Source: Apostichopus japonicus (Eukaryota > Echinodermata > Holothuroidea > Aspidochirotida > Stichopodidae). Taken from it: DNA of 64,000 nucleotides. Position numbers and translations under genes: made by a program. The number at the start of each line of letters is the position of its first letter. Position 1 is the first letter of the stretch. Positions 34,857 to 63,824 of the stretch are shown piece after piece. Below the pieces are notes generated by a model, which saw only the letters and a program-made list of their open reading frames with translations, searched no databases and was not told the DNA's origin. Location of the stretch: NCBI RefSeq assembly GCF_037975245.1, contig NC_092577.1, positions 17,188,013-17,252,012 of the forward strand. Reading direction: 5' to 3'.

Positions 34857-35208
34857 GTCGGAACATAGAGACGTCGGAACATAGAGACGTCGGAACATAG
34901 AGACGTCGGAACATAGAGACGTCGGAACATAGAGACGTCGGAACATAGAGACGTCGGAACATAGAGACGTCGGAACATAGAGACGTCGGAACATAGAGAC
35001 GTCGGAACATAGAGACGTCGGAACATAGAGACGTCGGAACATAGAGACGTCGGAACATAGAGACGTCGGAACATAGAGACGTCGGAACATAGAGACGTCG
35101 GAACATAGAGACGTCGGAACATAGAGACGTCGGAACATAGAGACGTCGGAACATAGAGACGTCGGAACATAGAGACGTCGGAACATAGAGACGTCGGAAC
35201 ATAGAGAT
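34857..35208. repeat. 22 tandem copies of a 16-bp unit
   Basis: The unit gtcggaacatagagac is repeated 22 times with no change except in the last base. Because 16 is not a multiple of three, all three minus-strand frames read the same 16-residue cyclic peptide with no stop, giving three overlapping ORFs of 140-177 codons that are very unlikely to be genes. The homogeneity implies recent expansion. Confidence 0.97.
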
Positions 35209-35612
35209 GTAACCGTATTGTCACTATGCACGCATACAATTTAGGCAACAGGAATCGTTGATACTGGTCCTGGTATGGCTGTTCACGTTTGTCACTCCTT
35301 AATGTAGCGTCAATACGGACGCTTCTTAGTCGTCTTGACCGTTATATTATGTCATGGAAATTTGTTCATGTGTTTTTTTTTAACACAACTATCAGTCCCG
35401 AGAGCTTGAGGTTGATAATTCTGATAGGTAGGCCACGCCCAAAATTCATTTGTGCGCCCCAGGTCAGTAATTTACAGCTCCTGACCAATTGACACAAACC
35501 ATCATTTATGCCTAATTGGTCTAACTTCAAGTACTAGCAGCTGCAGTGTGCCTGTTAAACGCTGTGCGTAGGCTACTTGTAAAGTTGTTGAAAATAAATT
35601 TTATTTGATATT
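35209..35612. other. Unique-looking spacer
   Basis: No motif or repeat recognised between the satellite and the 5' truncation point of LINE E. Confidence 0.4.
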
Positions 35613-40142: not shown

Positions 40143-40384
40143 ATTTTACTTATGAATTGAATTCTAATAGCATCCCGAACAATGTCTATATCTCTTAAAT
40201 TAAGACCTCCTTTCTCATGCGGGTAACAATAGGGTGGAATATTTTATTTCTTTTTTTTGTTTTAAATTTTTTTTTTTTACATTTTACTTATGAATTTAAT
40301 TCTAATAGCATCCCGAACAATTTCTATATCTCTTAAATTAAGACCTCCTTTCTCATGCGGGTAACAATAGGATGGAATATTTTA
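40143..40384 (-). repeat. ~104-bp duplication within LINE A ORF2
   Basis: 40143-40246 and 40281-40384 are near-identical (period 138). Both carry attttacttatgaatt, tctaatagcatcccgaacaa and cctttctcatgcgggtaaca. The linker between them is T-rich. Confidence 0.85.
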
Positions 40385-40984
40385 TGGGGCTCTTCTTGCC
40401 GCGCCAAATAAAATCGAAAATAGTTTCACGCATAGTCGTAATAACCCAGTCAGGGGGTGGAAGAACAGTGATGAGATAAACAAGTCTACAAATAAATATT
40501 GAATTAATAACAATCGATTTACCTCTGGTAGTAATACACTGAACTTATTCACTTTATCTTTCCAATAAACAGTTTCTGTCAACACTCTGTTGTTGCCAAT
40601 GGCAACCCCAAGAACTTCAATGTAGTCGTTTCTGACGGGGAAGTCGAAGTCATGACAATTAATTTGGGAATTCCCAAAAACCAAAAGCTCGGTTTTGTCT
40701 AGGTTGCACTTGGAACCAGATGCATGTTCATAGAGTCTAAGCACTATAAGTATAGAATAAATAATGGTAATGCTGGACACAAAGAAAGTTGTGTCATCGG
40801 CATGCTGAAACACTTTCACCTCGATGTCACTAAATTTGATACCTGAAATAAGTGGACAATTGGTAATCGCTTCATGTAATGGCTCGGCGCTTTGAAGGTA
40901 TAGGATTGCCCGTAACGGGCAATCCTGGCGGACTCCTCTCTGAATAGGAAACTCTTTAGAAATGAAGCCATTGTACTGTAGAGG

Positions 40985-41690
40985 TTTTGTTAATAATAAT
41001 AAATACTACTAACTTCTAATAATAGTTCTGTCTAGTTTAACCCTCCTTGGATGGGTCCAGGGAACTTGATCTGCCAGTTCCAAGATAGATCCGTATAATA
41101 AAATCCTTATAAATGAATAAATGATAACTGAATCCGAAGCGCTAGTAATTAGGTGGGTTGCATTGCTACATCCCACACATAAAATTTCCGGTGGATTCCC
41201 GGAGATTATACGAAGAATATACGAATTTATTTAGCCAGCTGTCGCTGTGGTGTAGGAGATGGTATATATCGTAGTGCTAAAATAATATTACGGCTTAAGA
41301 GAACAACCTTCGCTGACCGATTCACTGAACGAAGTGGCTGATAAAATATGTCGCTCTACACTTGAACTTATGACCCCAAAACTTTCTCTCGTTGGACATT
41401 GGTCCTCTTTGTTCAAGTTTACTATAAATGGGAGTGGAGATACTTTTTAAGAAAAAGTCACCCAGGAAAGAACCTGGGCACGAAAACCAAACTACCAAAC
41501 GACTGATCCGCTCTCAGCCCCAGTCCCCTTGCATCGGGACTGTGACTGTGTGATCATAAGCAAGAAAGTTGGGCGACAGAATGTCTATAAACAAAATAAG
41601 TAGGCTGTTCCACTTTGCGAGAGTGAATATATAGGCTCGCTTGCAGTGCGGTCAGTACAGTACTTAATACAAATATAAATGTTCTTATAT
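40985..41690. other. Foreign ~0.7-kb insert in LINE A
   Basis: LINE A RT coding similarity stops near 40985 and resumes near 41690 (FGPKF-like segment on minus). The insert is non-coding and includes dispersed repeat copy 2. It may be a non-autonomous element. Confidence 0.55.
41439..41554 (-). repeat. Dispersed ~117-bp repeat, copy 2
   Basis: Inverted relative to 20119-20235, with only a handful of differences over its length. It lies inside the insert of LINE A. Confidence 0.75.
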
Positions 41691-43755
41691 AAAATCTTTA
41701 GCCACATACGAAAATTAGGGCCGAAACCCATTTTTGGCAGAACGTCATAAATATAGGTGTGGTCGACCCTATCAAATGCTTCATATTGGTCGATTTTAAG
41801 CGCTGAGTATATTTAAATTATTTTCATTCACATTGCTAATAATATTCTGCATAATTAAAACATTCTTAGCAATATCACGACCTGGAATGCAGCAAGTTCG
41901 ATCATTTGAAACTATATTATGGATGACTTTCGAAACTATTTGCTAATGACTGGCTAATACTTTTATGGTCAGTATTTAATAAACAAATCGGTCTGCAATC
42001 ATTAAGGCATCTAAGATCATTTTTCTTAGGAATTAAAGTTAAAACACCAGTTCTCATAGAAGAACAAAGTTCATTATTCTGAAATATTTCGATAACAAGT
42101 TTTGCGAAAATGTCGCTGAATTCACGCCAAAATACTTTGAAGAATTGTACAGCCATCAAGTCCTGGGCTCTTATTTGGTTCCATTGTCAAGAGGGTGCTC
42201 TTCAATTCTTCGAAGGAAAGGTCTTTATCGCACAGATCTGAATCGTCTTGTGGAAGGGATTTTGAAAGATTATTGATTAATTCCTCTCTATAACTTCCAT
42301 CAGTAGCTTCGCTTGAGTAGAGTTCTGTCTAGTATTTTGTCTGTTCCATGATAATTTCCTGTTGGTCGCTAATAATGTCGCCATCGTTGGTTATTAATTG
42401 CCGCATTACTTTTCGTTTTTTACGAGATTTCTCCACAGTTAAGAAGAATTTAGTTGACTTCTCGCCTTCCTCGTACCACTGGATTTTAGATCTGGGAGCA
42501 GCACCGTTTATTTCGTTAGTCATTAATGTGTTAATTTCATTTTCAAGACATTTAAGGAGAGTGCAGTGATAGACCGTGAATTTCTGTGCTTTGTATTTCT
42601 CCTAATCGTTTTGCTTTGTTAATTTCTTCTTTGAACTTTGCTGTAGCTTACGTTTTATTTTGCTGTATCTAATAGAGGTGATTTTAATTCTCTCTTTGAG
42701 GTCATCATACCACTTCCGGAAATTAATTTCATAGTAAATATTATGAATTTTCTCCTCGTTAATAAGATTACGGATTTCAATACAATAGCTTTCATCGAGG
42801 AGTAGTGAGTTATTTAAAATCCAATAACCAGGACCCCTGGGTATAATTGCGAGATCTAGATGAAGTTCTACATGATCGGAAAAGGGATACTTTGTATGTT
42901 GACAATTAATAACATTATGGATAATACGTTTTGACATTAAAAATCTGTCAATCCTGGACGAACGGCGTCCGTCGACAGTATCTGTAGACCAGGACAAATT
43001 AGTTGTCAGGATTGCGTTGCCTCCAGATATCGATTAGTTGATGTTCTATCATGAGGTCGTTGAGTGGTTTTCGGGAGACATCGGGATGTGGTTTCACCGG
43101 GTATCTGTCTTTATATACCTTTCAAATATTGTTAAAATCACCGGTTATAATGAGTGGTCTTTTATTTAGGAGCAATTTTCTCTTTCAAGTCTACGAAGAA
43201 TGACTTTCTCTCCAGAGGAATATTTGGTGCATAAACGTTAATGATAGTTAATTGTCGACAACCAGGAAATTAACTATTTACTATTTACTATTATTATTTA
43301 TTATTTATTATGTCAATTTGTGCAAAACGGCCGTTATTTTCGCTGGTATTGTTAACGATATTGATACCTGAGTCTTTTTTGATGAGACATGAAACACCTC
43401 TTCTATTATTGAGGGTATAAAAGGGTACTTTTGAAACTTATCTCACCGTTCCATTGTTTTGTAGCACTCTCATGATGAACGTCATCCCACAATGTTTCCT
43501 GAAGTAAAATAATGTCATATTTCCTGTTGGTAACCAAATTTAAAAGAGTATCTCTCTTGTCCGAATTCCTCAAGCCATTACAGTTTAAGGTGGCTAAGAA
43601 CAGCATGATCCTGATGAATAATTGTGGTATAATTAATGTGAATGTGTCTTTTTCGAGGTGAATTGTCTTGCACTTTTGAGGTTCGGCGTTGTGCTGTTCT
43701 TTCGATTATGTTTTAGTTGCACTCTCGTGAACCCGTCGTCGCTTGACGCTGTTTT

Positions 43756-45745: not shown

Positions 45746-48490
45746 TCAATAGTAGTATGATATTTGAATTAATACGATGCAATGATTTCTTTTTGATAAT
45801 TTTTTTTTTTCATTTACTCTTATAGAATTCCAAGTTCTTATACCACGATTTCTTAAGCTTAACATTCCTATTGAAGTATTCGTTGTGTAATAATGCGCAT
45901 TATCGGCGTATCTTGTATTGTAATAATGTAAATCCCTATTACTAATAAGGTAATTTTGAAAAGCATTAGACAGTAGTCCATTCCACACCTTATAAGTGAA
46001 GGTGGCAATATTTACACGAATTAAGTCATTGACTTTCAATAAATTAAGATTCTTAAATATAGGGCTGGTGCGATGACGAGGTGCAGCACGTGATATTTGT
46101 CGGATTGCCTTCTTTTGTAGTATAATAAGTGAATTGAGATTAGTTTTATACGTGCCAGACCAAATAATAGAACAATAACAAATATGTGGTACTACCAGGG
46201 TTTCATAAAGTGTCTTTAATACGTGTTGTGGCAACAAGTGTTTTAATTTGGATAAAATACATGCATTTTTAGCAACTTCGTTGCAGACTGTTGAAATGTG
46301 AGCACACCAGGAAAGGTTGTGATCAATAGAACTTAGGTTGTGATCAATAGAACTAAGAACTTAGTAGTGTTAACATGCTTGAGAATTTTGCCTCCCATAA
46401 TAATGTCTTTATCCCTATTAAATGTTCTGGAAGTATTAGACTATGTAATTAGTTTTGTCTATGTTGAGCGATAGTTTATTGGCGGCAAACCAGTCATTAA
46501 ATTTATCTAGTTCTAAGAAACTTTGTTATCATCAGCAAATAGAATAATGTTAGCAATTTCAGACACGTCGCAGATGTCATTGACATATAAAATAAATAGT
46601 AAAGAACCTAAAATTGAACCTTGTGGGACACCACAATTAATTTCTCCCAGTTGAGAGTGAGTGTTTTTGTAAGAAGTGTATTGAAAACGATTAGAAATAT
46701 AACTATCTATCCAGTTCAGTGTCGTTCCTCTTATGCCACAATGGTGTAATTTGTTACGTAGGATGGCATGATCAATAGTGTCAAATGCTTTAGATAGGTC
46801 GAGGAACACGCCAATGCAAGTTTTACTTTTGTCAATGCCACTGTATAGTTTGTCAATAACATCTGCCAGTGCAAGCTCCGATGAATGTTCTGGTCGGAAG
46901 CCATATTGTTCATCGCAAAGGATATTATATTTGTTTAGGAAATTGAATATACGTTTAAACATTAATCTTTCGATAATTTTCGAAAAACAAGATAATAGTG
47001 AGATTGGTCGATAGTTTTCGTAGTTATCTGAATCGCCTTTTTGGAAAATTTGAATAATTTTGGCAATCTTTAGTGCATCGGGGAAAACTCCGGTGTTAAA
47101 GGATTCATTACATATATGAGTCAAAGGGTTAACGATAAAAGGCATAAATTGGTTTATAATACCAGCTTTAAAATCATATCCTGCGGCTTTCTTTGGTTTC
47201 AAACAAGAAGTCGCAATCTTTAATAATTCCTCCTCACAGACAGGGTATATAAATATAGAGCTACTGTTTACATTACTATGTATGAAGTTGGGTAGTGTTC
47301 CTTTGTTGTTAATTTTATTTGTCAGTGAAGGCCCTAGATTGATAAAAAAAAAATCATTAAAGTTATTAGCAATGTCATTAGTAATCTCTTCATCGCAATG
47401 TTTAAAAGAGGCAGGATATGATGATTGTTTACTCTTGTTATGTAGAATTTCGTTGATAGTTTTCCAGGTGTCATTAGATTTATAACTTGATTCATACAAT
47501 TTGTTATTAAAATATAATCGTTTGGAGAATTTCCAAACATGGTTTAGCTTATTACGATATGCAGTATATGAAACTTTATTGTTGTTTCATGAAATTTAAG
47601 AGTAATGCTTAAAAGGTTTGTTCTTTCTTTTTCATAGAAACTAATATGCCTTTGGTAATCCATGGGTGTTTCTTTTTACGCCTTTCAGTTTTACTAATGC
47701 AGTGTTTCGGGAAACAGTGATTGTAAAATGAGTTAAAAGAATCATAGAAGCTTTTATAAGCATTATTTGCATCAGAATAGGTTAAAACGACGTTCCAAGA
47801 ATTGTCTTTTATATTCGAAATAATTTTGTTTATGTTGGCAGTACTATAATTTCGTGTATAAAGAGGATAATTAATTTTATTTCTTTTGGCACTAACTGCA
47901 AGGAAAATAGGGAAATTGTCACTTAAGTCGGTTATTACAATTCCTGATGTGACAGAAGAGTGTATATTTGTTATGATGTTATCAATTAATGTTTCTGAGG
48001 TTGATCAAACACGTGTTGGTTTGGTGATTCCTGGGAAAAAACCATAAGAGTAATATATAATAAGAGTAAACCATAATATAGGAGTTGCAGTGGTTTTGCG
48101 TTAATATGCTAAAGATATGTTGTATATCAGAGTGAAAATTGTCTATAGAACTATGTGGTGGCCTATAAATACACCCAGTGATAATTTTTTCATTGCTATG
48201 AGGTAACATTATTTCAACAAATATAGATTCAAATGAATTGTTAAAAATTTAGGTCGATATTTGAAGTTGAAATCATTATTTACAAATAAACATACTCCAC
48301 CACCCCTTCTATCGTTGCGATGCTTTTCTACGAGAGTATAATTATTTATATGTATAGTAGGAGATAGATTTTTATTGAACCATGTCTCGGAGACGCCAAT
48401 TACTGAAAAATTAGTTTTGTTCAGACTGCGACTATTGAGGTGGAAAAAGGTAAGTCCATGACTGGGGGATAAATTGTTATAAGAATTAAT
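45746..48490 (-). pseudogene. CR1/Jockey-superfamily LINE ORF2, nearly complete but broken
   Basis: The endonuclease starts near 48490 (FHLNSRSLNKTNFSVIGVSE, then HRNDRRGGGVCLF), followed by TGCIYRPPHSSIDNF. The RT (46513-47499) is one clean frame with NYENYRPISLLSCFSKIIER, GVFLDLSKAFDTIDH (motif A), CGVPQGSILGSLLF and LFADDN in the catalytic box. Post-RT segments include ANKLSLNIDKTNYI (near 46480, with stops) and the C-terminal frame 45746-46237 with SPIFKNLNLLKVNDL. The VPQGSILGPLLF and SKAFDTIDH signatures place it in the CR1/L2-like group and distinguish it from the Tx1-type elements around it, into which it was probably inserted. Confidence 0.78.
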
Positions 48491-50135: not shown

Positions 50136-50155
50136 AACGTGATATGGCCGTAGAC
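50136..50155 (-). rRNA. 5S rRNA gene remnant (nt 1-20)
   Basis: Minus-strand copy of the 5S start through CACGTT, then LINE D sequence. Its upstream spacer (about 50156-50230) is standard 5S spacer. Confidence 0.8.
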
Positions 50156-50230: not shown

Positions 50231-50325
50231 AAGCCTACGGCACCCAGTATTCCCAGGCGGTCACCCATCCAAGTACTGACTGCGCTCTACGTTGCTTGAC
50301 TTCGGTGACCGGACGAGAACCGGTA
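50231..50325 (-). rRNA. 5S rRNA gene, 3' part (nt 26-120), split by LINE C
   Basis: 95 nt running from TACCGGTT to TAGGCTT on the minus strand, canonical at both variable sites (GGG, TAGGC). LINE C separates it from its 5' part at 55132-55164. It contains the internal promoter, but the gene is broken. Confidence 0.92.
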
Positions 50326-50366
50326 TTTTTTCCCTCTTTTATTAGGAGGTGAGCCCACTGGCTCAC
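50326..50366 (-). terminator. LINE C 3' terminus: hairpin, AATAAA and A-tail
   Basis: Minus strand GTGAGCC-AGTG-GGCTCAC (50349-50366), a perfect 7-bp stem, then CTCCTAATAAAAGAGGG and six A before the target repeat. The hairpin may be the RT recognition signal and AATAAA the polyadenylation signal. Confidence 0.7.
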
Positions 50367-50581
50367 CCATTGTCAACATTATTTACAAGGGTATGTTTGT
50401 TCAAAATGAAAACTTAATAAAAGGTAAATTAACTATAACATGAAATAATAATTACCTTAACAATTACTAATGCACCCATTGTCAACGTTATTTACAAGGG
50501 TATGTTTGTTCAAAATGAAAACTTAATTAGAGGTAAATTAACTATAACCTGAAATAATAATTACCTTAACAATTACTAATG
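50364..50581 (-). repeat. 109-bp tandem duplication in LINE C 3' UTR
   Basis: 50364-50472 and 50473-50581 differ at only a few positions. Each begins cacccattgtcaac and contains aagggtatgtttgttcaaaa. Confidence 0.9.
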
Positions 50582-50706
50582 TTGAAGTTAACAGAAAACT
50601 AAATTATTAATCACCACAGACATAAAATTAAATACAAAAGACAACAATGTCTAAGGCAAAGTGAAAAGACCAGACCCTGCTTACGTCAACACGTACTCTA
50701 TTAAAA

Positions 50707-53700
50707 TTAACCCCTTTCCAGATGGTAAGTATAGCTGTTCGATTCTTTCTTAGAGAGCACAATATTGTTCTGGGTAAATATATTATAAAACCGTGAGAGC
50801 TTGTGTTTGTGGTAGTACACATCCAAAAGTAAGCGAATTTTCTTTTTCAGTACATTGTGAAAAACTTTTTCAATATTACATCGATAGTTATTATTGAGGC
50901 GAGATATTCTACAATTCCAAATTGTACACTTATATATATTGAAGATGATGTCACACAAAATTCCTACAATACATTTGTTTTTACGGCCAAGACCCACAAG
51001 GGACAACCCCTTCCATTCATCTAAATTAAGTACCGGATGTAAAGTATTCAACTTATTAACCAAAAAACGCCATAAATTTTCAACTTCAGAACACTCAATA
51101 AAAAGATGAATAGTACTTTCGTTCGTGGTCTTGCAAAAGGTGCAGTAAGGAGAGTCGGTTAATCCAAACTTGTACAATTTTCGTTAGTGTAAGGAATATT
51201 ATGTAATACTTTGAAGTCGATATCGGCTTCAAAGAAATACTTTGGAGAACGATATATGTTACTCCACTATTAGAAAATTCAAAACTGGGAAAATACTGCT
51301 TCCAGTAATTTTCGCCCTTGGGCGATGTGTTAAGATTGTCACGCATTATACGTGAAGCTATTCTGCTCGAAACTGAGGAGGCATCTATAATGTTTGCGCC
51401 ATTATGAAATTTTACAGTAGGAATATAGTCAATTTGCGTAGATACAATTGCATCGGAAGAAAATATATCATCTAACCAGTCAGAGGGTAAGGCGTGGGGA
51501 ATGACATCGATATAATTCTGAACACAGTATCGAGTACTGTAAGGGGATTATCAGGATTAGCAAGCTCAATGCATTCATGTACGGCCTTGGCTGGCAGAGA
51601 AGTAGGTATAATCTCATACATCAGATCGCTGGCAGAAACGATACCACCTCAAGTGACGATTGAAAAGTTTCGGACTATCATTGTCAACAATCAGGTGATT
51701 ACTAAAAATGGGTTGATTGAGGATGTCTTCTCTGGTCTCTGGTAGCCAGAAACGACCTTCAATTAGCCCGATCCCATGCTAACATGAGTTCACAGTAATA
51801 AGGGTTTAGCTTATGGACAGACTTGCGGTTAGGAGTTATTTGAAAGATACCACGCCCAAGGCTCATATCTCCATACATATTTAAAAAATACATTTTTTTG
51901 GTAATTTAATATTAATGTTATTGCTTAATATCTGACTACGAAATTTCATTCTAGGAGCATCACGCGTTAACTCAATGTCGCTCAAACTGAAACCCCCTCT
52001 GTCGATTGGTAAAAGCAAGTTAAAATACTTTATAGAAGGTTTTTTACCCCTCTAGATAAAATCGACGACACTCTGACGTAAGGTGGTGATAACCCAATCA
52101 GGGACTGGTAAAACAGTGGCCAAATACACTAAGCGAGTTACGATGAGCGAATTTATGATGAAAGATTTTCCCTTAAGAGATAATTTTATACCTTTCCAGG
52201 TATTTAGTAATTTACAGCAAGAGGTAACTTTTTTCTCCCAACTTTCTTTTTCGATTGACTTTTGATCGTTAGCAATAGCAACACCTAATACTGTAATGAA
52301 ATCTTTCCTGACAGGGAAGTCGAAATCGCTGGGATTGGCATGGCTGCACCCAATGCTAAATAACTCAGTTTGTCAATATTACACCTAGAGCCAGAAGCAC
52401 GCTCATACAATTTAATGATGTTGAAAATAGAATAAATACTTGTGATACTAGACACGAAAAAGGTAGTGTCGTCCGCATGCTGAAAATTTTGGGCTTCGAC
52501 GTCACCAAATTGAAAAGCATGAGTATAAGGACAATTAATTATAGCTTCATGAATGGCTGAGGGTGGGCAGCCCTGCCGAACTCCCCTGTTGACTGGGAAG
52601 GGATCGGAAATATAACCATTGTGCTTGATTCGGTACTCGATATTGGTATAAAACAGTTTGATCCATTTTAAGAACTTAGGACCAAAACCCAATTTTTAAG
52701 CAACTTCGAAGAGGTAGTTATGGTCAACCCTGTCAAAGGCTTTATATTGGTCTATTTTAAGAATAAAACCAGGTTTATTATGTAAATTGACATACTGAAT
52801 TACATTTTGCATAGTAACCACGTTTTCAGAAATATCTCTCCCTGGAATACAACACGTTTAATCTTGTGAAATAATATTCTTACTGATACTTGTCATACGT
52901 TTAGCGAGAGTTTTGGCAATCATTTTGTAATCAACATTTAAGAGGCTTATTGCTCTCCAATTATTTAAACTACGAAGATCTCCTTGGGTATGAGGGTAAG
53001 TATACTTATTTTCATGGAATTACAGAGTTCGTTGTCATGGAATGATGTTTCAATTAGTGTAATAAAAATATCGATAAAATACCACCAAAACACTTTGTAA
53101 AATTCATCACTTATTCCATCTAGTCCTGGACTTTTGTTCGGTTTCATTGGTAACAGAGCGGCTTTCAACTCATCTAATGAAATATGAGCTTCACAGGCTT
53201 CTACGTCCATTGGCGAGAGAAATCTTCTGAGTTCACAAAGTATTTGATCCCGCGATTTGTCGTCGGTTTCTTCGGCTTGGTAGAGGTTTCTATAAAACTT
53301 TACTTGTTCTTTCATAATTTCGTGTTCATCGCTGATGATAAAGCTCTGGTCTGTTAGTAATAACTTGGTCAATTTCTAAACCATCTATAGTAATATTGAC
53401 ATTGTTACATGTGGTATGGTTGGAGAAAATCATATAATTTGTTTTGTTTACATTCAATGATAATTTATTAAGGGCAAACCATCTGCTTAACTTCTTAAGT
53501 TCGGTACTGACCAAATTACATAATGTTTTGATATCACTATGACTGCAGAATATGTTTGTGTCATCTAAAGTCTATTCGAATAAAACGACCATTATCATTT
53601 GTTATGTAGTTTGTAATATCAATATCACTATTTCTCCTGAACAAGACAGTTACTCCTTTTTTCTGGTGGGCACAAAAGGAAGAGTACATTTTGACACCCC

Positions 53701-53828
53701 CATTCGACTAAAGCAGCTTTTTGGATTTCTTCGTCCCAGAAGGTTTCAACTAGAACTGTAATGTCATACCTTTTAGATATTACAAGGCTCAAGAGTTCCG
53801 TCCCTTTTTTCAGCATTCCGTAATCCAT
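50707..53828 (-). pseudogene. LINE C ORF2 (endonuclease and RT), broken
   Basis: Only the start of the endonuclease is recognisable (KRYDITVLVETFWDEEIQ, 53628-53828). RT pieces follow: MKPNKSPGLDGISDEFYKVF (52965-53372), GPKFLKWIKLFYTNIEY, then NRGVRQGCP, after which ~15 residues are deleted before AIHEAI, and FQHADDTTFFV (52285-52692). The C-terminus (50707-51177) has a CxxC/HxxxxC zinc motif (YCTFCKTTNESTIHLFIEC). A CR1-type fragment replaces part of the endonuclease region (53326-53560). Frameshifts and deletions make it dead despite its clean target site. Confidence 0.78.
53326..53560 (-). pseudogene. CR1-type RT fragment inserted in LINE C
   Basis: KKLSRWFALNKLSLNVNKTN followed by MIFSNHT matches the post-YADD region of the CR1-type LINE at 46.4-46.5 kb, not Tx1. 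About 0.2 kb. Most of the C endonuclease between it and 53628 is missing. Confidence 0.65.
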
Positions 53829-53849
53829 TACAGTTCAGTGTGGTTAAGA

Positions 53850-54864
53850 GGAACATTGCTCTAAGAAAAGGGGTCATTGTATCGCCTTTTCCTTGGGTTT
53901 GTACATCCTTGCTAACCGGAGATTTGCCGATATATTCATTCTGCGTGATATGGTCTGCATTTTTGGTTTTACCATTGTTTCAAGAAAAGCTTGTTCATGT
54001 AGTTCGATTTGTGCCTCTTTTTCCTGGCTTCTGATCTGTTTTGGCTTTTTTTTTTTACACTTGACTTGTCATTAGTCTCCATAGTTTTGGTTTCGGCTGG
54101 GCTCTTTGTTGCCTTAGTAGTTGTGGCTGTGTCCATTGCATTAGAATCGGCCGGTACTGAAAATTTTCTGTTTCTTGGTGTCGCTGTTTCTGACGGTGTC
54201 GGTGTTGCTGACGGTGCTGGTGTCGGTGTCGGTTCTGGTGTACCTTCCATAGGTTCAGAATGAGAGGCCGTGCTTTCTGCCTCACATAAAAAAAAAAATA
54301 TCCAAAATTGTTGCATGTCTCTCTGTGTCCTTGTGTGCCACATTCCCGGCAGGTATATTGTTGGCAGTCTCTCATGATATGTTCATCACGCATTTTGTAC
54401 ACACTTTGGTTTGTCTGTTATGTTTTAGTCTGATGTGCTCGCCTCCAATGTTAATTGCGTACGGCAAACTTTTAGCGTTTGGAGGAAGTTCAATTCGAAC
54501 GAAGCGGATTCCATTTTCCACTTCCGGGAATGCTGAGTAGTATTTCCATGTCCATTTAGACTTGATCAAGCAACCTAGATATTTGAGTTTACCGGTCAGT
54601 TCGTCATCTTCGATATAGCATGGTACACCAAAGCAGCTAACAGTCGTTTCCAATTTTCAATCCCGGTTCTTGTAAAAGATCCGCATCTTCTGACGATTTC
54701 AATGTAATAATCCACTGCCCATTGGTCTTTACACATCCTCTCACGTTTTCCTTCCCTATAACCATTGTGACAGCACTAATCACATCAATAGGATTATAAG
54801 CATTATCAACTACTCTAACACTGTACGTTTTCAATATGGAACCACTAGTTTTCGCGGAATCCAT
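53850..54864 (-). pseudogene. LINE C ORF1
   Basis: Starts MDSAKTSG; RGCVKTNGQWIITLKSSEDA and FGVPCYIEDDELTGKL match A and B, with a frameshift near 54650. The zinc region keeps CVMNIS/EHIMRDCQQYTC and CRECGTQGH, but the next knuckle is damaged by an A-run (54289-54298). The C-terminal part is a Pro/Thr-rich stretch caused by an ACC/CAC-type simple repeat (about 54180-54240), then basic. Confidence 0.72.
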
Positions 54865-54885
54865 ACCGATACTAAGGCTTGCCCC

Positions 54886-54899
54886 GCGTCGCGAGACGC
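54886..54899 (-). promoter_or_regulatory. Leader hairpin upstream of LINE C ORF1
   Basis: Minus strand GCGTC-TCGC-GACGC, 22 nt before the ORF1 ATG at 54864. Confidence 0.6.
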
Positions 54900-55131
54900 C
54901 GTGGCAACCTAAGAATGGCGGAGAAATTATCGAAAAATCCCAACTGATACACGGATATAAACAAACCAGTCCGTTTAATAAAGATACAATCGTCCTCTCG
55001 CAGAAAATGAAGAAGGAAAGAATGGTAAACCAACAAGTAGAAAGGCAGAATTCAGGGGACCAAACTGGTCAACTGAAAGTACGTCTGAACCAGTCAAGGT
55101 ACAGGTACGCTCTGAGAACCGGTATAATCAC

Positions 55132-55164
55132 AACCGGTATAGTCAACGTGATATGGCCGTAGAC
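55132..55164 (-). rRNA. 5S rRNA gene, 5' part (nt 1-33), split by LINE C
   Basis: 33 nt from GTCTACGG to CCGGTT. Together with 50231-50325 it accounts for a whole 5S gene with nt 26-33 duplicated. Confidence 0.92.
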
Positions 55165-55239: not shown

Positions 55240-55359
55240 AAGCCTACGGCACCCAGTATTCCCAGGCGGTCACCCATCCAAGTACTGACTGCGCTCTACG
55301 TTGCTTGACTTCGGTGATCGGACGAGAACCGGTAAAGTCAACGTGATGTGGCCGTAGAC
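55240..55359 (-). rRNA. 5S rRNA gene, copy 1 (minus)
   Basis: 120 nt, complete; the only full copy on the minus strand. It has TTTACCGG where others have TATACCGG. The internal control C-box (AGTACTTGGATGGGTGACCG) is intact and a T-run follows the 3' end. Confidence 0.93.
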
Positions 55360-55617: not shown

Positions 55618-55737
55618 GTCTACGGCCATATCACGTTGACTATTCCGGTTCTCGACCGATCACCGTATTCCAGCAACGTAGAGCGCAGTCAGTACTTGGA
55701 TGGGCGACCGCCTGGGAATACTGGGTGCCGTAGGCCT
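55618..55737 (+). rRNA. 5S rRNA copy 2, degenerate
   Basis: 120 nt, but with several changes: TATTCCGG, CTCGACC, GTATTCCAG in place of GAAGTCAAG, and GGGCGACC in the C-box; it lacks the clean T4 run (TAGGCCTTTC). Probable pseudogene at the head-to-head array junction. Confidence 0.85.
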
Positions 55738-55948
55738 TTCTTTTCCTAACTAGAACACTGTCTTGCCACAAGGAAAGCGATTTTAAAATCGAATATATTA
55801 ATAAATAGCTCGATTGTTTTTATATATTATAGTATTATACATATATATCTGAAATATAGAGTAACATAGGCTTTTATTTTCATAATTGATAACACTATGT
55901 TGCCACGACGATGAGAAATTGAAATGGCCTACATTGACCTCTTGTTAT

Positions 55949-56068
55949 GTCTACGTCCACATCACGTTGACTATACCGGTTCTCGTCCGATCACCGAAGT
56001 CAAGCAACGTAGAGCGCAGTCAGTACTTGGATGGGTGACCGCCTGGGAATACTGGGTGCCGTAGGCTT
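55949..56068 (+). rRNA. 5S rRNA copy 3
   Basis: Canonical 3' part but G8T (CTACGTCC), which unpairs helix I at 8-111. Confidence 0.93.
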
Positions 56069-56351
56069 TTATTTTTTATAATTGATAACACTATGTTGCC
56101 ACGACGATGAGAAATTGAAATGGCCTTCATTGTCTTTCCACAAGGAAAGTGTCTTGCCACGAGGAAAGCGATTTGAAAATCGAATATATTAATAAATACC
56201 TCGTTTGTTTTTATATATTAGAATTTTCTACATATATATGTAAAATATAGATTAACATAATATATATTAAATCCATTCATGTATAATATATATATTAAAT
56301 CCACTGATCATAACCTACCAGACAAGTAGCCTACATTTCACCTCTTGGAAT

Positions 56352-56471
56352 GTCTACGGCCACATCACGTTGACTATACCGGTTCTCGTCCGATCACCGA
56401 AGTCAAGCAACGTAGAGCGCAGTCAGTACTTGGATGGGTGACCGCCTGGGAATACTGGGTGCCGTAGGCTT
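56352..56471 (+). rRNA. 5S rRNA copy 4
   Basis: Canonical at both variable sites (GGGAA, GTAGGC), 120 nt, followed by TTTT, the usual Pol III terminator. Confidence 0.96.
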
Positions 56472-56538
56472 TTATTTTCATAATTGATAACACGACGATG
56501 ATGAGAAATTGAAATGGCCTACATTGACCGGTTTTTAT

Positions 56539-56660
56539 GTCTACGGCCACATCACGTTGACTATACCGGTTCTCGTCCGATCACCGAAGTCAAGCAACGT
56601 AGAGCGCAGTCAGTACTTGGATGGGTGACCGCCTGGGGGAATACTGGGTGCCGCAGGCTT
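56539..56660 (+). rRNA. 5S rRNA copy 5 (GG-insert class)
   Basis: 122 nt, with GGGGG in place of GGG at 97-99 and T114C (GCAGGC). First gene of the higher-order array. Confidence 0.93.
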
Positions 56661-56940
56661 TTATTTTCATAATTGATAACACTATGTTGCCACGACGATG
56701 ACAAATTGAAATGGCCTTCATCGTCTTTCCACAAGGAAAGTGTCTTGCCACGAGGAAAGCGATTTGAAAATCGAATATATTAATAAATAACTCGTTTGTT
56801 TTTATATATTAGAATTGTCTACATATATATGTAAAATATAGATTAACATAATATATATTAAATCCATTCATGTATAATATATATTAAATCCACTGATCAT
56901 AACCTACCAGACAACTAGCCTACATTTCGCCTCTTGGAAT

Positions 56941-57060
56941 GTCTACGGCCATATCACGTTGACTATACCGGTTCTCGTCCGATCACCGAAGTCAAGCAAC
57001 GTAGAGCGCAGTCAGTACTTGGATGGGTGACCGCCTGGGAATACTGGGTGCCGCAGGCTT
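56941..57060 (+). rRNA. 5S rRNA copy 6 (T114C only)
   Basis: 120 nt, GGG normal, GCAGGC at the end. Confidence 0.93.
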
Positions 57061-57340
57061 TTATTTTCATAATTGATAACACTATGTTGCCACGACGATG
57101 AGAAATTGAAATGGCCTTCAATGTCTTTCCACAAGGAAAGTGTCTTGCCACGAGGAAAGCGATTTGAAAATCGAATATATTAATAAATACCTCGTTTGTT
57201 TTTATATATTAGAATTTTCTAGATATATATGTAAAATATAGATTAACATAATATATATTAAATCCATTCATGTATAATATATATTAAATCCACTGATCAT
57301 AACCTACCAGACAACTAGCCTACATTTCGCCTCTTGGAAT

Positions 57341-57462
57341 GTCTACGGCCACATCACGATGACTATACCGGTTCTCGTCCGATCACCGAAGTCAAGCAAC
57401 GTAGAGCGCAGTCAGTACTTGGATGGGTGACCGCCTGGGGGAATACTGGGTGCCGCAGGCTT
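57341..57462 (+). rRNA. 5S rRNA copy 7 (GG-insert class)
   Basis: GG insertion, T114C, and T19A (CACGATGAC). Confidence 0.93.
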
Positions 57463-57742
57463 TTATTTTCATAATTGATAACACTATGTTGCCACGACGA
57501 TGACAAATTGAAATGGCCTTCAATGTCTTTCCACAAGGAAAGTGTCTTGCCACGAGGAAAGCGATTTGAAAATCGAATATATTAATAAATACCTCGTTTG
57601 TTTTTATATATTAGAATTTTCTAGATATATATGTAAAATATAGATTAACATAATATATATTAAATCCATTCATGTATAATATATATTAAATCCACTGATC
57701 ATAACCTACCAGACAACTAGCCTACATTTCGCCTCTTGGAAT

Positions 57743-57864
57743 GTCTACGGCCACATCACGATGACTATACCGGTTCTCGTCCGATCACCGAAGTCAAGCA
57801 ACGTAGAGCGCAGTCAGTACTTGGATGGGTGACCGCCTGGGGGAATACTGGGTGCCGCAGGCTT
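57743..57864 (+). rRNA. 5S rRNA copy 8 (GG-insert class)
   Basis: Same three changes as copy 7, 402 bp on; this is the extra unit that makes the block six genes instead of five. Confidence 0.93.
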
Positions 57865-58146
57865 TTATTTTCATAATTGATAACACTATGTTGCCACGAC
57901 GATGAGAAATTGAAATGGCCTTCATTGTCTTTCCACAAGGAAAGTGTCTTGCCACGAGGAAAGCGATTTGAAAATCGAATATATTAATAAATACCTCGTT
58001 TGTTTTTATATATTAGAATTTTCTAGATATATATGTCAAATATAGATTAACATAATATATATTAAATCCATTCATGTATAATATATATATTAAATCCACT
58101 GATCATAACCTACCAGACAAGTAGCCTACATTTCACCTCTTGGAAT

Positions 58147-58268
58147 GTCTACGGCCATATCACGTTGACTATACCGGTTCTCGTCCGATCACCGAAGTCA
58201 AGCAACGTAGAGCGCAGTCAGTACTTGGATGGGTGACCGCCTGGGGGAATACTGGGTGCCGCAGGCTT
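58147..58268 (+). rRNA. 5S rRNA copy 9 (GG-insert class)
   Basis: GG insertion and T114C, with normal CACGTTGAC; upstream reads tttcacctcttgga. Confidence 0.93.
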
Positions 58269-58343
58269 TTATTTTCATAATTGATAACACTATGTTGCCA
58301 CGACGATGACAAATTGAAATGGCCTACATTGACCTCTTGTTAT

Positions 58344-58463
58344 GTCTACGGCCACATCACGTTGACTATACCGGTTCTCGTCCGATCACCGAAGTCAAGC
58401 AACGTAGAGCGCAGTCAGTACTTGGATGGGTGACCGCCTGGGAATACTGGGTGCCGTAGGCTT
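58344..58463 (+). rRNA. 5S rRNA copy 10 (canonical)
   Basis: Canonical 120 nt; short upstream spacer ending gacctcttgttat. Confidence 0.96.
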
Positions 58464-58530
58464 TTATTTTCATAATTGATAACACGACGATGATGAGAAA
58501 TTGAAATGGCCTTCATTGACCGGTTTTTAT

Positions 58531-58652
58531 GTCTACGGCCACATCACGTTGACTATACCGGTTCTCGTCCGATCACCGAAGTCAAGCAACGTAGAGCGCA
58601 GTCAGTACTTGGATGGGTGACCGCCTGGGGGAATACTGGGTGCCGCAGGCTT
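58531..58652 (+). rRNA. 5S rRNA copy 11 (GG-insert class)
   Basis: Preceded by cttcattgaccggtttttat, which differs at one site from the homologous copies 5, 16 and 27 (ctacattgacc). Confidence 0.93.
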
Positions 58653-58932
58653 TTATTTTCATAATTGATAACACTATGTTGCCACGACGATGACAAATTG
58701 AAATGGCCTTCATCGTCTTTCCACAAGGAAAGTGTCTTGCCACGAGGAAAGCGATTTGAAAATCGAATATATTAATAAATAACTCGTTTGTTTTTATATA
58801 TTAGAATTGTCTACATATATATGTAAAATATAGATTAACATAATATATATTAAATCCATTCATGTATAATATATATTAAATCCACTGATCATAACCTACC
58901 AGACAACTAGCCTACATTTCGCCTCTTGGAAT

Positions 58933-59052
58933 GTCTACGGCCATATCACGTTGACTATACCGGTTCTCGTCCGATCACCGAAGTCAAGCAACGTAGAGCG
59001 CAGTCAGTACTTGGATGGGTGACCGCCTGGGAATACTGGGTGCCGCAGGCTT
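58933..59052 (+). rRNA. 5S rRNA copy 12 (T114C only)
   Basis: Counterpart of copy 6 in the five-gene block. Confidence 0.93.
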
Positions 59053-59332
59053 TTATTTTCATAATTGATAACACTATGTTGCCACGACGATGACAAATTG
59101 AAATGGCCTTCAATGTCTTTCCACAAGGAAAGTGTCTTGCCACGAGGAAAGCGATTTGAAAATCGAATATATTAATAAATACCTCGTTTGTTTTTATATA
59201 TTAGAATTTTCTAGATATATATGTAAAATATAGATTAACATAATATATATTAAATCCATTCATGTATAATATATATTAAATCCACTGATCATAACCTACC
59301 AGACAACTAGCCTACATTTCGCCTCTTGGAAT

Positions 59333-59454
59333 GTCTACGGCCACATCACGATGACTATACCGGTTCTCGTCCGATCACCGAAGTCAAGCAACGTAGAGCG
59401 CAGTCAGTACTTGGATGGGTGACCGCCTGGGGGAATACTGGGTGCCGCAGGCTT
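59333..59454 (+). rRNA. 5S rRNA copy 13 (GG-insert class)
   Basis: GG insertion, T114C and T19A; the five-gene block has this one where the six-gene block has two. Confidence 0.93.
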
Positions 59455-59736
59455 TTATTTTCATAATTGATAACACTATGTTGCCACGACGATGAGAAAT
59501 TGAAATGGCCTTCATTGTCTTTCCACAAGGAAAGTGTCTTGCCACGAGGAAAGCGATTTGAAAATCGAATATATTAATAAATACCTCGTTTGTTTTTATA
59601 TATTAGAATTTTCTAGATATATATGTCAAATATAGATTAACATAATATATATTAAATCCATTCATGTATAATATATATATTAAATCCACTGATCATAACC
59701 TACCAGACAAGTAGCCTACATTTCACCTCTTGGAAT

Positions 59737-59858
59737 GTCTACGGCCATATCACGTTGACTATACCGGTTCTCGTCCGATCACCGAAGTCAAGCAACGTAG
59801 AGCGCAGTCAGTACTTGGATGGGTGACCGCCTGGGGGAATACTGGGTGCCGCAGGCTT
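59737..59858 (+). rRNA. 5S rRNA copy 14 (GG-insert class)
   Basis: Counterpart of copy 9. Confidence 0.93.
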
Positions 59859-59933
59859 TTATTTTCATAATTGATAACACTATGTTGCCACGACGATGAG
59901 AAATTGAAATGGCCTACATTGACCTCTTGTTAT

Positions 59934-60053
59934 GTCTACGGCCACATCACGTTGACTATACCGGTTCTCGTCCGATCACCGAAGTCAAGCAACGTAGAGC
60001 GCAGTCAGTACTTGGATGGGTGACCGCCTGGGAATACTGGGTGCCGTAGGCTT
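59934..60053 (+). rRNA. 5S rRNA copy 15 (canonical)
   Basis: Canonical; last gene of the first full 3,582-bp period. Confidence 0.96.
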
Positions 60054-60120
60054 TTATTTTCATAATTGATAACACGACGATGATGAGAAATTGAAATGGC
60101 CTACATTGACCGGTTTTTAT

Positions 60121-60242
60121 GTCTACGGCCACATCACGTTGACTATACCGGTTCTCGTCCGATCACCGAAGTCAAGCAACGTAGAGCGCAGTCAGTACTT
60201 GGATGGGTGACCGCCTGGGGGAATACTGGGTGCCGCAGGCTT
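60121..60242 (+). rRNA. 5S rRNA copy 16 (GG-insert class)
   Basis: Exact positional repeat of copy 5 (+3,582). Confidence 0.93.
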
Positions 60243-60522
60243 TTATTTTCATAATTGATAACACTATGTTGCCACGACGATGACAAATTGAAATGGCCTT
60301 CATCGTCTTTCCACAAGGAAAGTGTCTTGCCACGAGGAAAGCGATTTGAAAATCGAATATATTAATAAATAACTCGTTTGTTTTTATATATTAGAATTGT
60401 CTACATATATATGTAAAATATAGATTAACATAATATATATTAAATCCATTCATGTATAATATATATTAAATCCACTGATCATAACCTACCAGACAACTAG
60501 CCTACATTTCGCCTCTTGGAAT

Positions 60523-60642
60523 GTCTACGGCCATATCACGTTGACTATACCGGTTCTCGTCCGATCACCGAAGTCAAGCAACGTAGAGCGCAGTCAGTAC
60601 TTGGATGGGTGACCGCCTGGGAATACTGGGTGCCGCAGGCTT
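60523..60642 (+). rRNA. 5S rRNA copy 17 (T114C only)
   Basis: Repeat of copy 6; its downstream spacer keeps the same 'gatgagaaattg' variant. Confidence 0.93.
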
Positions 60643-60922
60643 TTATTTTCATAATTGATAACACTATGTTGCCACGACGATGAGAAATTGAAATGGCCTT
60701 CAATGTCTTTCCACAAGGAAAGTGTCTTGCCACGAGGAAAGCGATTTGAAAATCGAATATATTAATAAATACCTCGTTTGTTTTTATATATTAGAATTTT
60801 CTAGATATATATGTAAAATATAGATTAACATAATATATATTAAATCCATTCATGTATAATATATATTAAATCCACTGATCATAACCTACCAGACAACTAG
60901 CCTACATTTCGCCTCTTGGAAT

Positions 60923-61044
60923 GTCTACGGCCACATCACGATGACTATACCGGTTCTCGTCCGATCACCGAAGTCAAGCAACGTAGAGCGCAGTCAGTAC
61001 TTGGATGGGTGACCGCCTGGGGGAATACTGGGTGCCGCAGGCTT
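60923..61044 (+). rRNA. 5S rRNA copy 18 (GG-insert class)
   Basis: Repeat of copy 7, with T19A. Confidence 0.93.
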
Positions 61045-61324
61045 TTATTTTCATAATTGATAACACTATGTTGCCACGACGATGACAAATTGAAATGGCC
61101 TTCAATGTCTTTCCACAAGGAAAGTGTCTTGCCACGAGGAAAGCGATTTGAAAATCGAATATATTAATAAATACCTCGTTTGTTTTTATATATTAGAATT
61201 TTCTAGATATATATGTAAAATATAGATTAACATAATATATATTAAATCCATTCATGTATAATATATATTAAATCCACTGATCATAACCTACCAGACAACT
61301 AGCCTACATTTCGCCTCTTGGAAT

Positions 61325-61446
61325 GTCTACGGCCACATCACGATGACTATACCGGTTCTCGTCCGATCACCGAAGTCAAGCAACGTAGAGCGCAGTCAGT
61401 ACTTGGATGGGTGACCGCCTGGGGGAATACTGGGTGCCGCAGGCTT
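61325..61446 (+). rRNA. 5S rRNA copy 19 (GG-insert class)
   Basis: Repeat of copy 8, with T19A. Confidence 0.93.
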
Positions 61447-61728
61447 TTATTTTCATAATTGATAACACTATGTTGCCACGACGATGAGAAATTGAAATGG
61501 CCTTCATTGTCTTTCCACAAGGAAAGTGTCTTGCCACGAGGAAAGCGATTTGAAAATCGAATATATTAATAAATACCTCGTTTGTTTTTATATATTAGAA
61601 TTTTCTAGATATATATGTCAAATATAGATTAACATAATATATATTAAATCCATTCATGTATAATATATATATTAAATCCACTGATCATAACCTACCAGAC
61701 AAGTAGCCTACATTTCACCTCTTGGAAT

Positions 61729-61850
61729 GTCTACGGCCATATCACGTTGACTATACCGGTTCTCGTCCGATCACCGAAGTCAAGCAACGTAGAGCGCAGT
61801 CAGTACTTGGATGGGTGACCGCCTGGGGGAATACTGGGTGCCGCAGGCTT
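61729..61850 (+). rRNA. 5S rRNA copy 20 (GG-insert class)
   Basis: Repeat of copy 9. Confidence 0.93.
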
Positions 61851-61925
61851 TTATTTTCATAATTGATAACACTATGTTGCCACGACGATGACAAATTGAA
61901 ATGGCCTACATTGACCTCTTGTTAT

Positions 61926-62045
61926 GTCTACGGCCACATCACGTTGACTATACCGGTTCTCGTCCGATCACCGAAGTCAAGCAACGTAGAGCGCAGTCAG
62001 TACTTGGATGGGTGACCGCCTGGGAATACTGGGTGCCGTAGGCTT
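61926..62045 (+). rRNA. 5S rRNA copy 21 (canonical)
   Basis: Repeat of copy 10. Confidence 0.96.
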
Positions 62046-62112
62046 TTATTTTCATAATTGATAACACGACGATGATGAGAAATTGAAATGGCCTTCATTG
62101 ACCGGTTTTTAT

Positions 62113-62234
62113 GTCTACGGCCACATCACGTTGACTATACCGGTTCTCGTCCGATCACCGAAGTCAAGCAACGTAGAGCGCAGTCAGTACTTGGATGGGT
62201 GACCGCCTGGGGGAATACTGGGTGCCGCAGGCTT
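62113..62234 (+). rRNA. 5S rRNA copy 22 (GG-insert class)
   Basis: Repeat of copy 11, including its private cttcattgacc spacer variant. Confidence 0.93.
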
Positions 62235-62514
62235 TTATTTTCATAATTGATAACACTATGTTGCCACGACGATGACAAATTGAAATGGCCTTCATCGTCT
62301 TTCCACAAGGAAAGTGTCTTGCCACGAGGAAAGCGATTTGAAAATCGAATATATTAATAAATAACTCGTTTGTTTTTATATATTAGAATTGTCTACATAT
62401 ATATGTAAAATATAGATTAACATAATATATATTAAATCCATTCATGTATAATATATATTAAATCCACTGATCATAACCTACCAGACAACTAGCCTACATT
62501 TCGCCTCTTGGAAT

Positions 62515-62634
62515 GTCTACGGCCATATCACGTTGACTATACCGGTTCTCGTCCGATCACCGAAGTCAAGCAACGTAGAGCGCAGTCAGTACTTGGATGG
62601 GTGACCGCCTGGGAATACTGGGTGCCGCAGGCTT
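62515..62634 (+). rRNA. 5S rRNA copy 23 (T114C only)
   Basis: Repeat of copy 12, including its 'gatgacaaattg' spacer variant. Confidence 0.93.
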
Positions 62635-62914
62635 TTATTTTCATAATTGATAACACTATGTTGCCACGACGATGACAAATTGAAATGGCCTTCAATGTCT
62701 TTCCACAAGGAAAGTGTCTTGCCACGAGGAAAGCGATTTGAAAATCGAATATATTAATAAATACCTCGTTTGTTTTTATATATTAGAATTTTCTAGATAT
62801 ATATGTAAAATATAGATTAACATAATATATATTAAATCCATTCATGTATAATATATATTAAATCCACTGATCATAACCTACCAGACAACTAGCCTACATT
62901 TCGCCTCTTGGAAT

Positions 62915-63036
62915 GTCTACGGCCACATCACGATGACTATACCGGTTCTCGTCCGATCACCGAAGTCAAGCAACGTAGAGCGCAGTCAGTACTTGGATGG
63001 GTGACCGCCTGGGGGAATACTGGGTGCCGCAGGCTT
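62915..63036 (+). rRNA. 5S rRNA copy 24 (GG-insert class)
   Basis: Repeat of copy 13, with T19A. Confidence 0.93.
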
Positions 63037-63318
63037 TTATTTTCATAATTGATAACACTATGTTGCCACGACGATGAGAAATTGAAATGGCCTTCATTGT
63101 CTTTCCACAAGGAAAGTGTCTTGCCACGAGGAAAGCGATTTGAAAATCGAATATATTAATAAATACCTCGTTTGTTTTTATATATTAGAATTTTCTAGAT
63201 ATATATGTCAAATATAGATTAACATAATATATATTAAATCCATTCATGTATAATATATATATTAAATCCACTGATCATAACCTACCAGACAAGTAGCCTA
63301 CATTTCACCTCTTGGAAT

Positions 63319-63440
63319 GTCTACGGCCATATCACGTTGACTATACCGGTTCTCGTCCGATCACCGAAGTCAAGCAACGTAGAGCGCAGTCAGTACTTGG
63401 ATGGGTGACCGCCTGGGGGAATACTGGGTGCCGCAGGCTT
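63319..63440 (+). rRNA. 5S rRNA copy 25 (GG-insert class)
   Basis: Repeat of copy 14. Confidence 0.93.
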
Positions 63441-63515
63441 TTATTTTCATAATTGATAACACTATGTTGCCACGACGATGAGAAATTGAAATGGCCTACA
63501 TTGACCTCTTGTTAT

Positions 63516-63635
63516 GTCTACGGCCACATCACGTTGACTATACCGGTTCTCGTCCGATCACCGAAGTCAAGCAACGTAGAGCGCAGTCAGTACTTGGATG
63601 GGTGACCGCCTGGGAATACTGGGTGCCGTAGGCTT
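63516..63635 (+). rRNA. 5S rRNA copy 26 (canonical)
   Basis: Repeat of copy 15. Confidence 0.96.
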
Positions 63636-63702
63636 TTATTTTCATAATTGATAACACGACGATGATGAGAAATTGAAATGGCCTACATTGACCGGTTTTT
63701 AT

Positions 63703-63824
63703 GTCTACGGCCACATCACGTTGACTATACCGGTTCTCGTCCGATCACCGAAGTCAAGCAACGTAGAGCGCAGTCAGTACTTGGATGGGTGACCGCCTGG
63801 GGGAATACTGGGTGCCGCAGGCTT
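63703..63824 (+). rRNA. 5S rRNA copy 27 (GG-insert class)
   Basis: Repeat of copies 5 and 16; first gene of the third period, which runs off the window end. Confidence 0.93.

Follow-up and report, generated by a model that had tools for sequence, protein, structure and literature searches.

Within the 64,000-nucleotide (nt) stretch of Apostichopus japonicus DNA analyzed here, which we call the window (contig C17:17188013-17252012), a 5S rRNA gene is interrupted by a long interspersed nuclear element (LINE). Coordinates are window positions unless a contig is named, and the features of the interrupted gene and of the LINE lie on the minus strand. Specifically, BLAST with the window's own 5S sequence places nt 1-33 of the gene at 55164-55132 and nt 26-118 at 50325-50233, and Rfam scores 50232-50350 as 5S (50.0 bits). 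Between the halves sits a decayed LINE of about 4.8 kb, on the same strand as the gene. The sequence TACCGGTT, 5S nt 26-33, is present at both LINE flanks, at 55132-55139 on the 5' side and 50318-50325 on the 3' side, and constitutes a target-site duplication. The element ends in the hairpin GGTGAGCCAGTGGGCTCACC (50348-50367), an AATAAA motif (50338-50343), and an A6 tail (50326-50331). The split gene, the duplication, and this 3' terminus had all been described in a first-pass annotation, and each was recovered in our analysis. At the 5' junction, an 18-nt filler, GTGATTATACCGGTTCTC (55114-55131), is a repeat of the target sequence TATACCGGTTCTC.

The surroundings are rich in 5S sequence. The neighbor at 55241-55359 is a complete minus-strand 5S gene, oriented like the split one (Rfam, 98.6 bits), and 26 plus-strand 5S genes with mixed spacing form a higher-order repeat at 55618-63823. 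On the other side, nt 1-20 of a further 5S copy (50136-50155, minus strand) run straight into a reverse transcriptase (RT) fragment of a related LINE, a rearranged older insertion.

The LINE body (50332-55113), which belongs to a group of copies that we call subfamily A, is dead. The second open reading frame (ORF2) is in pieces in several frames, and about 287 residues are gone between the endonuclease and the RT; in that gap, the stretch 53428-53502 resembles another LINE. The RT remnant (52285-52695) is identified by tblastn to subfamily A ORF2 and by Pfam PF00078 (0.00045; 20.4 bits, below the curated cut-off of 29.6). The C-terminal remnant of ORF2, with a zf-RVT zinc-binding region, lies at 50707-51183 (PF13966, 4.2e-05; 24.6 bits, below the cut-off of 27.5). 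An ORF1 remnant in several frames spans 53969-55068, and is supported by nucleotide matches to the 5' ends of other copies (query 54600-55140). In the 3' untranslated region (UTR), a segment of about 109 bp is present twice in tandem, at 50364-50472 and 50473-50581.

A partial copy of the locus lies at C17:22.62 Mb (L013/L049) and is 94.5% identical over 2,411 bp. Because the two are near-duplicates, we count them as one insertion event. The 3' UTR tandem duplication is found in the window copy and largely in this duplicate, which matches the 3' UTR query over 1-441, compared with about 288 at most for other copies. The junction pattern AAAATACCGGTTCTCG occurs three times in the genome searched here (671.6 Mb, 35 contigs), while its reversed control occurs 0 times. 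The carriers are the window, its duplicate, and L048, a 5S insertion found via this pattern whose element belongs to subfamily B.

The site inside the 5S gene is used repeatedly. Twenty tailed LINE ends were seen in 5S genes, and the first 5S nucleotide after the tail is nt 26 in three (the window, L013, and L048), nt 27 in 14, and nt 28 in three (L108, L154, and L155). Both halves of a 5S gene surround a LINE at eight places, the window among them. At the other seven, the alignments span nt 1-41 and 28-118 at L116, 1-36 and 27-118 at L117, 1-39 and 27-118 at L119, 1-38 and 27-116 at L120, 1-39 and 27-116 at L121, 1-38 and 27-118 at L122/L123, and 1-38 and 27-116 at L125/L126. Four copies in 5S belong to subfamily A: the window, L013, L023, and L024. 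The last two, nearly identical to one another, occupy the window's 5S site and have longer A-runs.

A search with the ORF2 of L116 returned at least 64 rows (59 of 3,987 candidates scored). Most of the near-full-length matches among those listed have open frames of 750-1334 codons with no stops, and several lie in 5S arrays. This search contributed 14 of the 5S ends, on C8, C17, and C22, which we assigned by their tails to two families, F1 (10 ends) and F2 (4 ends). One F1 copy in 5S retains both ORFs intact (364 and 1290 amino acids). Four fetched stretches (L156, L157, L158, and L161) have no readable tailed 3' end.

Such regularity raises the idea of a plain family like Mutsu, a LINE of the Tx1 clade: the endonuclease of a Tx1 LINE would read the 5S sequence, and insertions elsewhere would be background. 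F1 and F2 fit this description, as both have been seen only in 5S (14/14 ends read, the copies read being those close to the query), on three contigs and in many cases with an open ORF2. However, the window copy falls outside F1 and F2, matching subfamily A with 833.7 summed bits versus at most 547.9 for six others. Its near relatives sit at fixed points in satellites, and other subfamilies also occupy tRNA genes. We regard the Mutsu-like explanation as unlikely, and we reject 5S-only specificity for the window copy itself, given that subfamily A is mostly in a satellite, Sat1. The first-pass annotation had read the element as a Tx1-type LINE, of a clade known for sequence-specific targets. 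The precise insertion with its target duplication, the LINE-1-group affinity, and the reuse of the site hold up, whereas exclusivity to 5S does not, as most subfamily A copies read are in satellite.

The census of 3' ends makes the breadth of the target range concrete. The window's 3' UTR matches at least 41 rows, corresponding to at least 40 places including the window (40 of 80 candidates scored). We read the flanks of the 39 other places. Most are in Sat1, an approximately 165-bp tandem satellite, at one place in its unit. Copies in other flanking sequence were what the first-pass annotation had named as telling against 5S specificity; most copies of the window 3' end indeed lie outside 5S, and these copies are still site-specific. 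A wider search with the hairpin 19-mer TGGGTGAGCCAGTGGGCTC, allowing up to 2 mismatches, finds 123 sites genome-wide and 0 for the reversed pattern, so chance matches are rejected. One hundred of the 123 sites were listed; 62 had not been met before, and 60 of those were read. Altogether, 101 rows were classified. One of them, L047, lacks a 3' end and is apparently one element with L057; without it there are 100 distinct ends, each carrying the hairpin within 2 mismatches. Classification was by eye for L013, L072, L083, L089-L091, L096-L098, L105, and L109.

Fifty-eight of the 100 ends are in Sat1, 25 inside tRNA genes, nine in other tRNA-like satellites, six in 5S, and one upstream of tRNA-Thr; one is unassigned. 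Sat1 ends start at unit nt 6-16 in 56 of 58 cases. Eight tRNA isotypes are represented, with 14 ends in Leu, three in Arg, two each in Asn and Gly, and one each in Glu, Lys, Ser, and Thr. Beyond its 14 ends in 5S, the ORF2 search added three (L133-L135) in a second satellite, sat2, or a sat2 variant. The supply of targets (up to 2 mismatches) is 50,925 sites for Sat1 and 3,170 for 5S.

As in 5S, both halves of a tRNA gene can be found around the LINE. This arrangement holds for Thr (nt 1-32/26-76), Glu (1-35/21-72), Gly (1-34/21-73), Ser (3-26/21-81), two Asn genes (7-36/21-67 and 7-30/24-56), three Arg genes (1-33/20-73, 1-32/20-73, and 1-32/24-73), and Leu (within a repeated unit). For tRNA-Lys, about 9.4 kb of upstream sequence (L113 and L149) showed no 5' half. 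Where the alignment reaches the junction, the first tRNA nucleotide is nt 20-27. For 5S and tRNA genes alike, the overlap between halves gives a target duplication of about 6-16 bp. The inserts measure from about 70 bp up to 5.6 kb, a spread that fits 5' truncation. Unsplit Thr, Glu, Gly, Arg, and Leu tRNA genes occur in the same stretches as split ones. All 14 tRNA-Leu ends lie in one tandem cluster on C13. There, at L150 (C13:14818000-14821000), a co-amplified tandem unit of about 649 bp contains three tRNA-Leu genes, one TAG, one AAG, and one interrupted by a LINE tail.

The copies that occupy these different targets are close kin, and the copies compared below belong in each case to one subfamily. 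Specifically, 5S and tRNA-Gly copies are 96.9% identical over 1,656 nt, tRNA-Gly and sat2 copies 98.8% over 168 nt, tRNA-Glu and Sat1 copies 99.4% over 168 nt, and 5S and Sat1 copies 95.4% over 389 nt. Thus, closely related copies, 95-99% alike, reside in different targets. In a tree of 12 ORF2 segments, in which one distant row is long, support is 100/99 for the hairpin-bearing lineage, 98/97 for F1 with F2, and a weak 80/86 for a satellite/tRNA branch of subfamilies A, B, D, E, and G; C was not placed. The F1 and F2 branch is seen only in 5S arrays, and members of the other branch mostly occupy satellites and now and then enter tRNA or 5S genes. Six distant relatives used as a control (33-35% identity) have no hairpin, and their fetched flanks have no match to 5S, Sat1, or eight tRNAs. 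The window holds a second LINE of the hairpin lineage, present as remnants at about 39300-43600 on the minus strand (36-64% to F1 ORF2), with no hairpin end nearby. Between remnants of lineage members lies the RT of another LINE (46513-47586, minus strand; PF00078, 3.4e-27).

Clade features were judged on relatives, the window copy being broken. The ORF2 of L119 contains an APE endonuclease (PF03372, 6.8e-13) and an RT (PF00078, 4.5e-34), and the zf-RVT of the intact F1 copy scores slightly below its Pfam cut-off. Zinc knuckles in ORF1 are a mark of the Tx1 clade; the L119 ORF1 has a zf-CCHC match above cut-off (1e-4, 22.6 bits) and three CCHC patterns by eye, while the L116 ORF1 has no Pfam match. 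Target-specific insertion, another feature of that clade, is found here. Among proteins of solved structure, the best relative of an intact member is LINE-1 ORF2p (5.5e-87, residues 12-871), compared with 5.2e-20 for R2. Tx1 is placed within the L1 group (PMC3747384). Judged by its predicted sequence, the lineage protein fits the LINE-1 group, the group that holds Tx1.

The 3' hairpin is lineage-wide and carries compensatory changes. Among 16 hand-picked tail variants, both sides change together at pair 3 (G-C/A-T), pair 5 (G-C/C-G/T-A), and pair 6 (T-A/A-T/G-C), while mispairs number one each at positions 1, 3, 5, and 8 and two at position 9. Pairs were counted by script, since the MAFFT alignment put one base of the F2 hairpin in the wrong place. 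The core CCAGTG is part of the pattern used to find tails, and it is also carried by F1 and F2, which were found through ORF2. Judging from the paired changes, the hairpin is an RNA structure. By analogy with other LINEs, it would be a natural candidate for recognition by the RT of its own RNA.

The 5' ends hold traces of other sites. L116, which sits in 5S, has 27/27 nt of sat2 at its 5' end, a trace of a donor site, and sat2 itself hosts a relative with 97% identity in ORF2. L148, in Sat1, has a 16-nt match to sat2 at its 5' end. In L111, L125, and the window copy, the element's own target is repeated at the 5' end, as if the second-strand end had slipped or the RNA had begun in the target. 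Together, these cases suggest that an element sometimes takes upstream sequence with it, or that such sequence is copied in as integration finishes. Near the start of three of the four subfamily A 5' ends read, two of those three being near-identical copies, is TATACCGGTTC, 11 nt as in 5S. Short as it is, this match may be another donor trace.

We consider it likely that the window holds a decayed copy of a LINE-1-group lineage that inserts in sense orientation at fixed points in 5S genes, tRNA genes, and tRNA-like satellites, and that a feature shared by these targets guides it, with the RNA polymerase III (Pol III) transcription complex as the first candidate. At the level of sequence, such insertion shows in fixed 3' junctions, A-runs, truncated 5' ends, a 3' hairpin with compensatory changes, and, for 5S and tRNA genes, target duplications of about 6-16 bp. 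Following the general LINE mechanism, the ORF2 endonuclease would make its first nick in the bottom strand, at 5S nt 25-28 or, in tRNA genes, shortly after the A box (about nt 20-27 of the gene), the hairpin and A-run of the LINE RNA would serve target-primed reverse transcription, and a second nick would be made about 6-16 nt further on. New copies could bring along a piece of the donor target at the 5' end, with the RNA sometimes seeming to start upstream of the element. What leads the lineage to its targets may be something that these genes have in common rather than one DNA sequence.

A more specific version of the proposal is that the lineage docks on the assembled Pol III complex and cuts about 20-28 nt inside the gene largely regardless of sequence, while subfamilies drift between targets and 5' ends record the jumps. 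The nick lies 25-28 nt from the gene start in 5S and 20-27 nt in tRNA genes. The similarity of the two distances suggests that the cut is measured from the Pol III start, a ruler that can be fitted to Sat1 and sat2 only with their start sites in hand. A common distance to the B box was considered and dropped, the values, by eye, being about 30 nt in tRNA versus about 47-52 nt in Sat1. We hold the docking version tentatively, as a possibility against which the balance tilts somewhat.

Several observations weigh against our favored explanation. The first concern DNA sequence, and they bear on an alternative in which the endonuclease of each subfamily reads a short degenerate motif, roughly (T/A)A followed by G or C within GC-rich sequence, which is repeated across 5S, tRNA genes, and satellites, with no part for the transcription machinery. 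Most tRNA and 5S nicks do fall after A and before G or C. With a motif matrix from eight tRNA sites, some of them typed from recall, the best of 152 Sat1 positions lies 3 nt from the subfamily B nick and the subfamily A nick ranks 5th, so sequence may matter. Moreover, the Sat1 start differs between subfamilies, at nt 12 in 10 of 12 rows for B and mostly at nt 7 for A, which suggests that cutting preference evolves with the protein. Yet the 5S points in use rank only 36th and 40th of 186, the best 5S match (after nt 90) is used in none of the 20 ends, and in sat2 the points in use take ranks of about 26-74 among 132. Furthermore, so short a motif (4-5 nt) would not by itself be expected to confine copies to these genes. 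To us, motif reading is quite possible, if short of probable.

On the same side stand the satellites and the exceptions. Sat1 and the other satellites are not called tRNA by Rfam, and their nicks are placed differently relative to box-like motifs, such that one ruler does not fit all targets. In seven of 13 Leu rows, the tRNA aligns only from nt 43 or 61, past the junction, because the preceding sequence has diverged; L072 was matched only by eye. L157 (C17:17145000-17146600), a tailless LINE piece outside the 20 ends, is joined to 5S at nt 17. In addition, L087 lies in Sat1 spacer, L004 is without an A-run, L099 fits no target, and L043 is just upstream of tRNA-Thr. The count covers 100 of 123 hairpin sites, and a hairpin search is blind to members that lack the hairpin. 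Finally, many Sat1 and C13 tRNA-Leu junctions are co-amplified, and independent insertion events are therefore fewer than rows.

Co-amplification taken to its limit yields a further explanation, namely that old insertions were multiplied by array amplification without repeated targeting. Consistent with it are the single event behind the window and L013/L049, the junction mutations that many of the Sat1 copies of C12 and C19 have in common, and the placing of the tRNA-Leu junctions of C13 within a repeated unit. However, eight tRNA isotypes, 5S insertions on three contigs, differing subfamilies, and varied A-runs, truncation points, and duplication lengths make one event impossible. As the whole story, array amplification is rejected, and we judge it very improbable that repeated targeting played no part.

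We note further features of the window. At 24620-28355 on the minus strand, an ORF with an Exo_endo_phos domain adjoins an ORF that, by eye, encodes a Pif1-like helicase; the pair is perhaps a Helitron-like element with an endonuclease. The regions 12471-13742 and 34669-35341 hold a tandem repeat, its offsets about 115 bp, and also a minisatellite in which three frames have long ORFs.

The lineage described here bears on the way in which site-specific LINEs choose their targets and move to new ones, and it can be set beside known systems. Mutsu of zebrafish is a LINE of about 5.5 kb with two ORFs that resides in 5S genes (PMC11202950, PMC3706591). The A. japonicus lineage resembles Mutsu in inserting inside the 5S gene at a fixed site (20/20 tailed ends at nt 26-28). 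Unlike Mutsu, it is also found in tRNA genes and satellites; the window copy's subfamily A is mostly in Sat1, and F1 and F2 are restricted to 5S as far as read. Dewa and Keno are LINEs aimed at repeats of small-RNA genes, Keno with an APE-type endonuclease (PMC3706591, PMC4640811). Dewa inserts in the spacer of tRNA-Leu genes, whereas the insertions here are inside tRNA genes of eight isotypes and inside 5S. Jockey-like LINEs of Tribolium freemani are regular in 5S clusters and interrupt 5S-linked satellite arrays (PMC11202950). They differ from the present lineage in that no fixed site inside 5S is described for them in the text consulted.

Other mobile elements are directed to Pol III genes. 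In social amoebae, the LINEs TRE5, TRE3, NLTR-A, and NLTR-B are so aimed. TRE5 targets tRNA and 5S genes, and its ORF1 protein binds TFIIIB; insertions of the TRE and NLTR elements lie 2-6 or about 40-64 bp upstream or 40-150 bp downstream of the gene (PMC5911963, PMC5006619). Those elements land beside the gene, whereas here the gene is split and its halves flank the LINE, with one exception upstream of tRNA-Thr (L043/L008). Dada DNA transposons are found within 5S genes and within the A box and anticodon regions of tRNA genes, not always keeping strictly to one isotype (PMC8869645), with duplications of 6-7 bp (PMC3706591). They are like the A. japonicus lineage in entering tRNA and 5S genes and unlike it in using a DDE transposase and another mechanism. 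By title and the start of abstracts, in a search made mostly without the subscription literature, we found no report of a LINE lineage in both 5S and several tRNA genes. In the portions of the sources consulted, the reviewed Pol III-directed retrotransposons land beside the gene, and LINEs of small-RNA genes are given one target each. Here, closely related copies in a single genome occupy 5S, tRNA genes of eight isotypes, and tRNA-like satellites, many of them with an open ORF2. Thus, sequence recognition versus tethering becomes directly testable, and the target remnants at 5' ends may reveal the order of past jumps.

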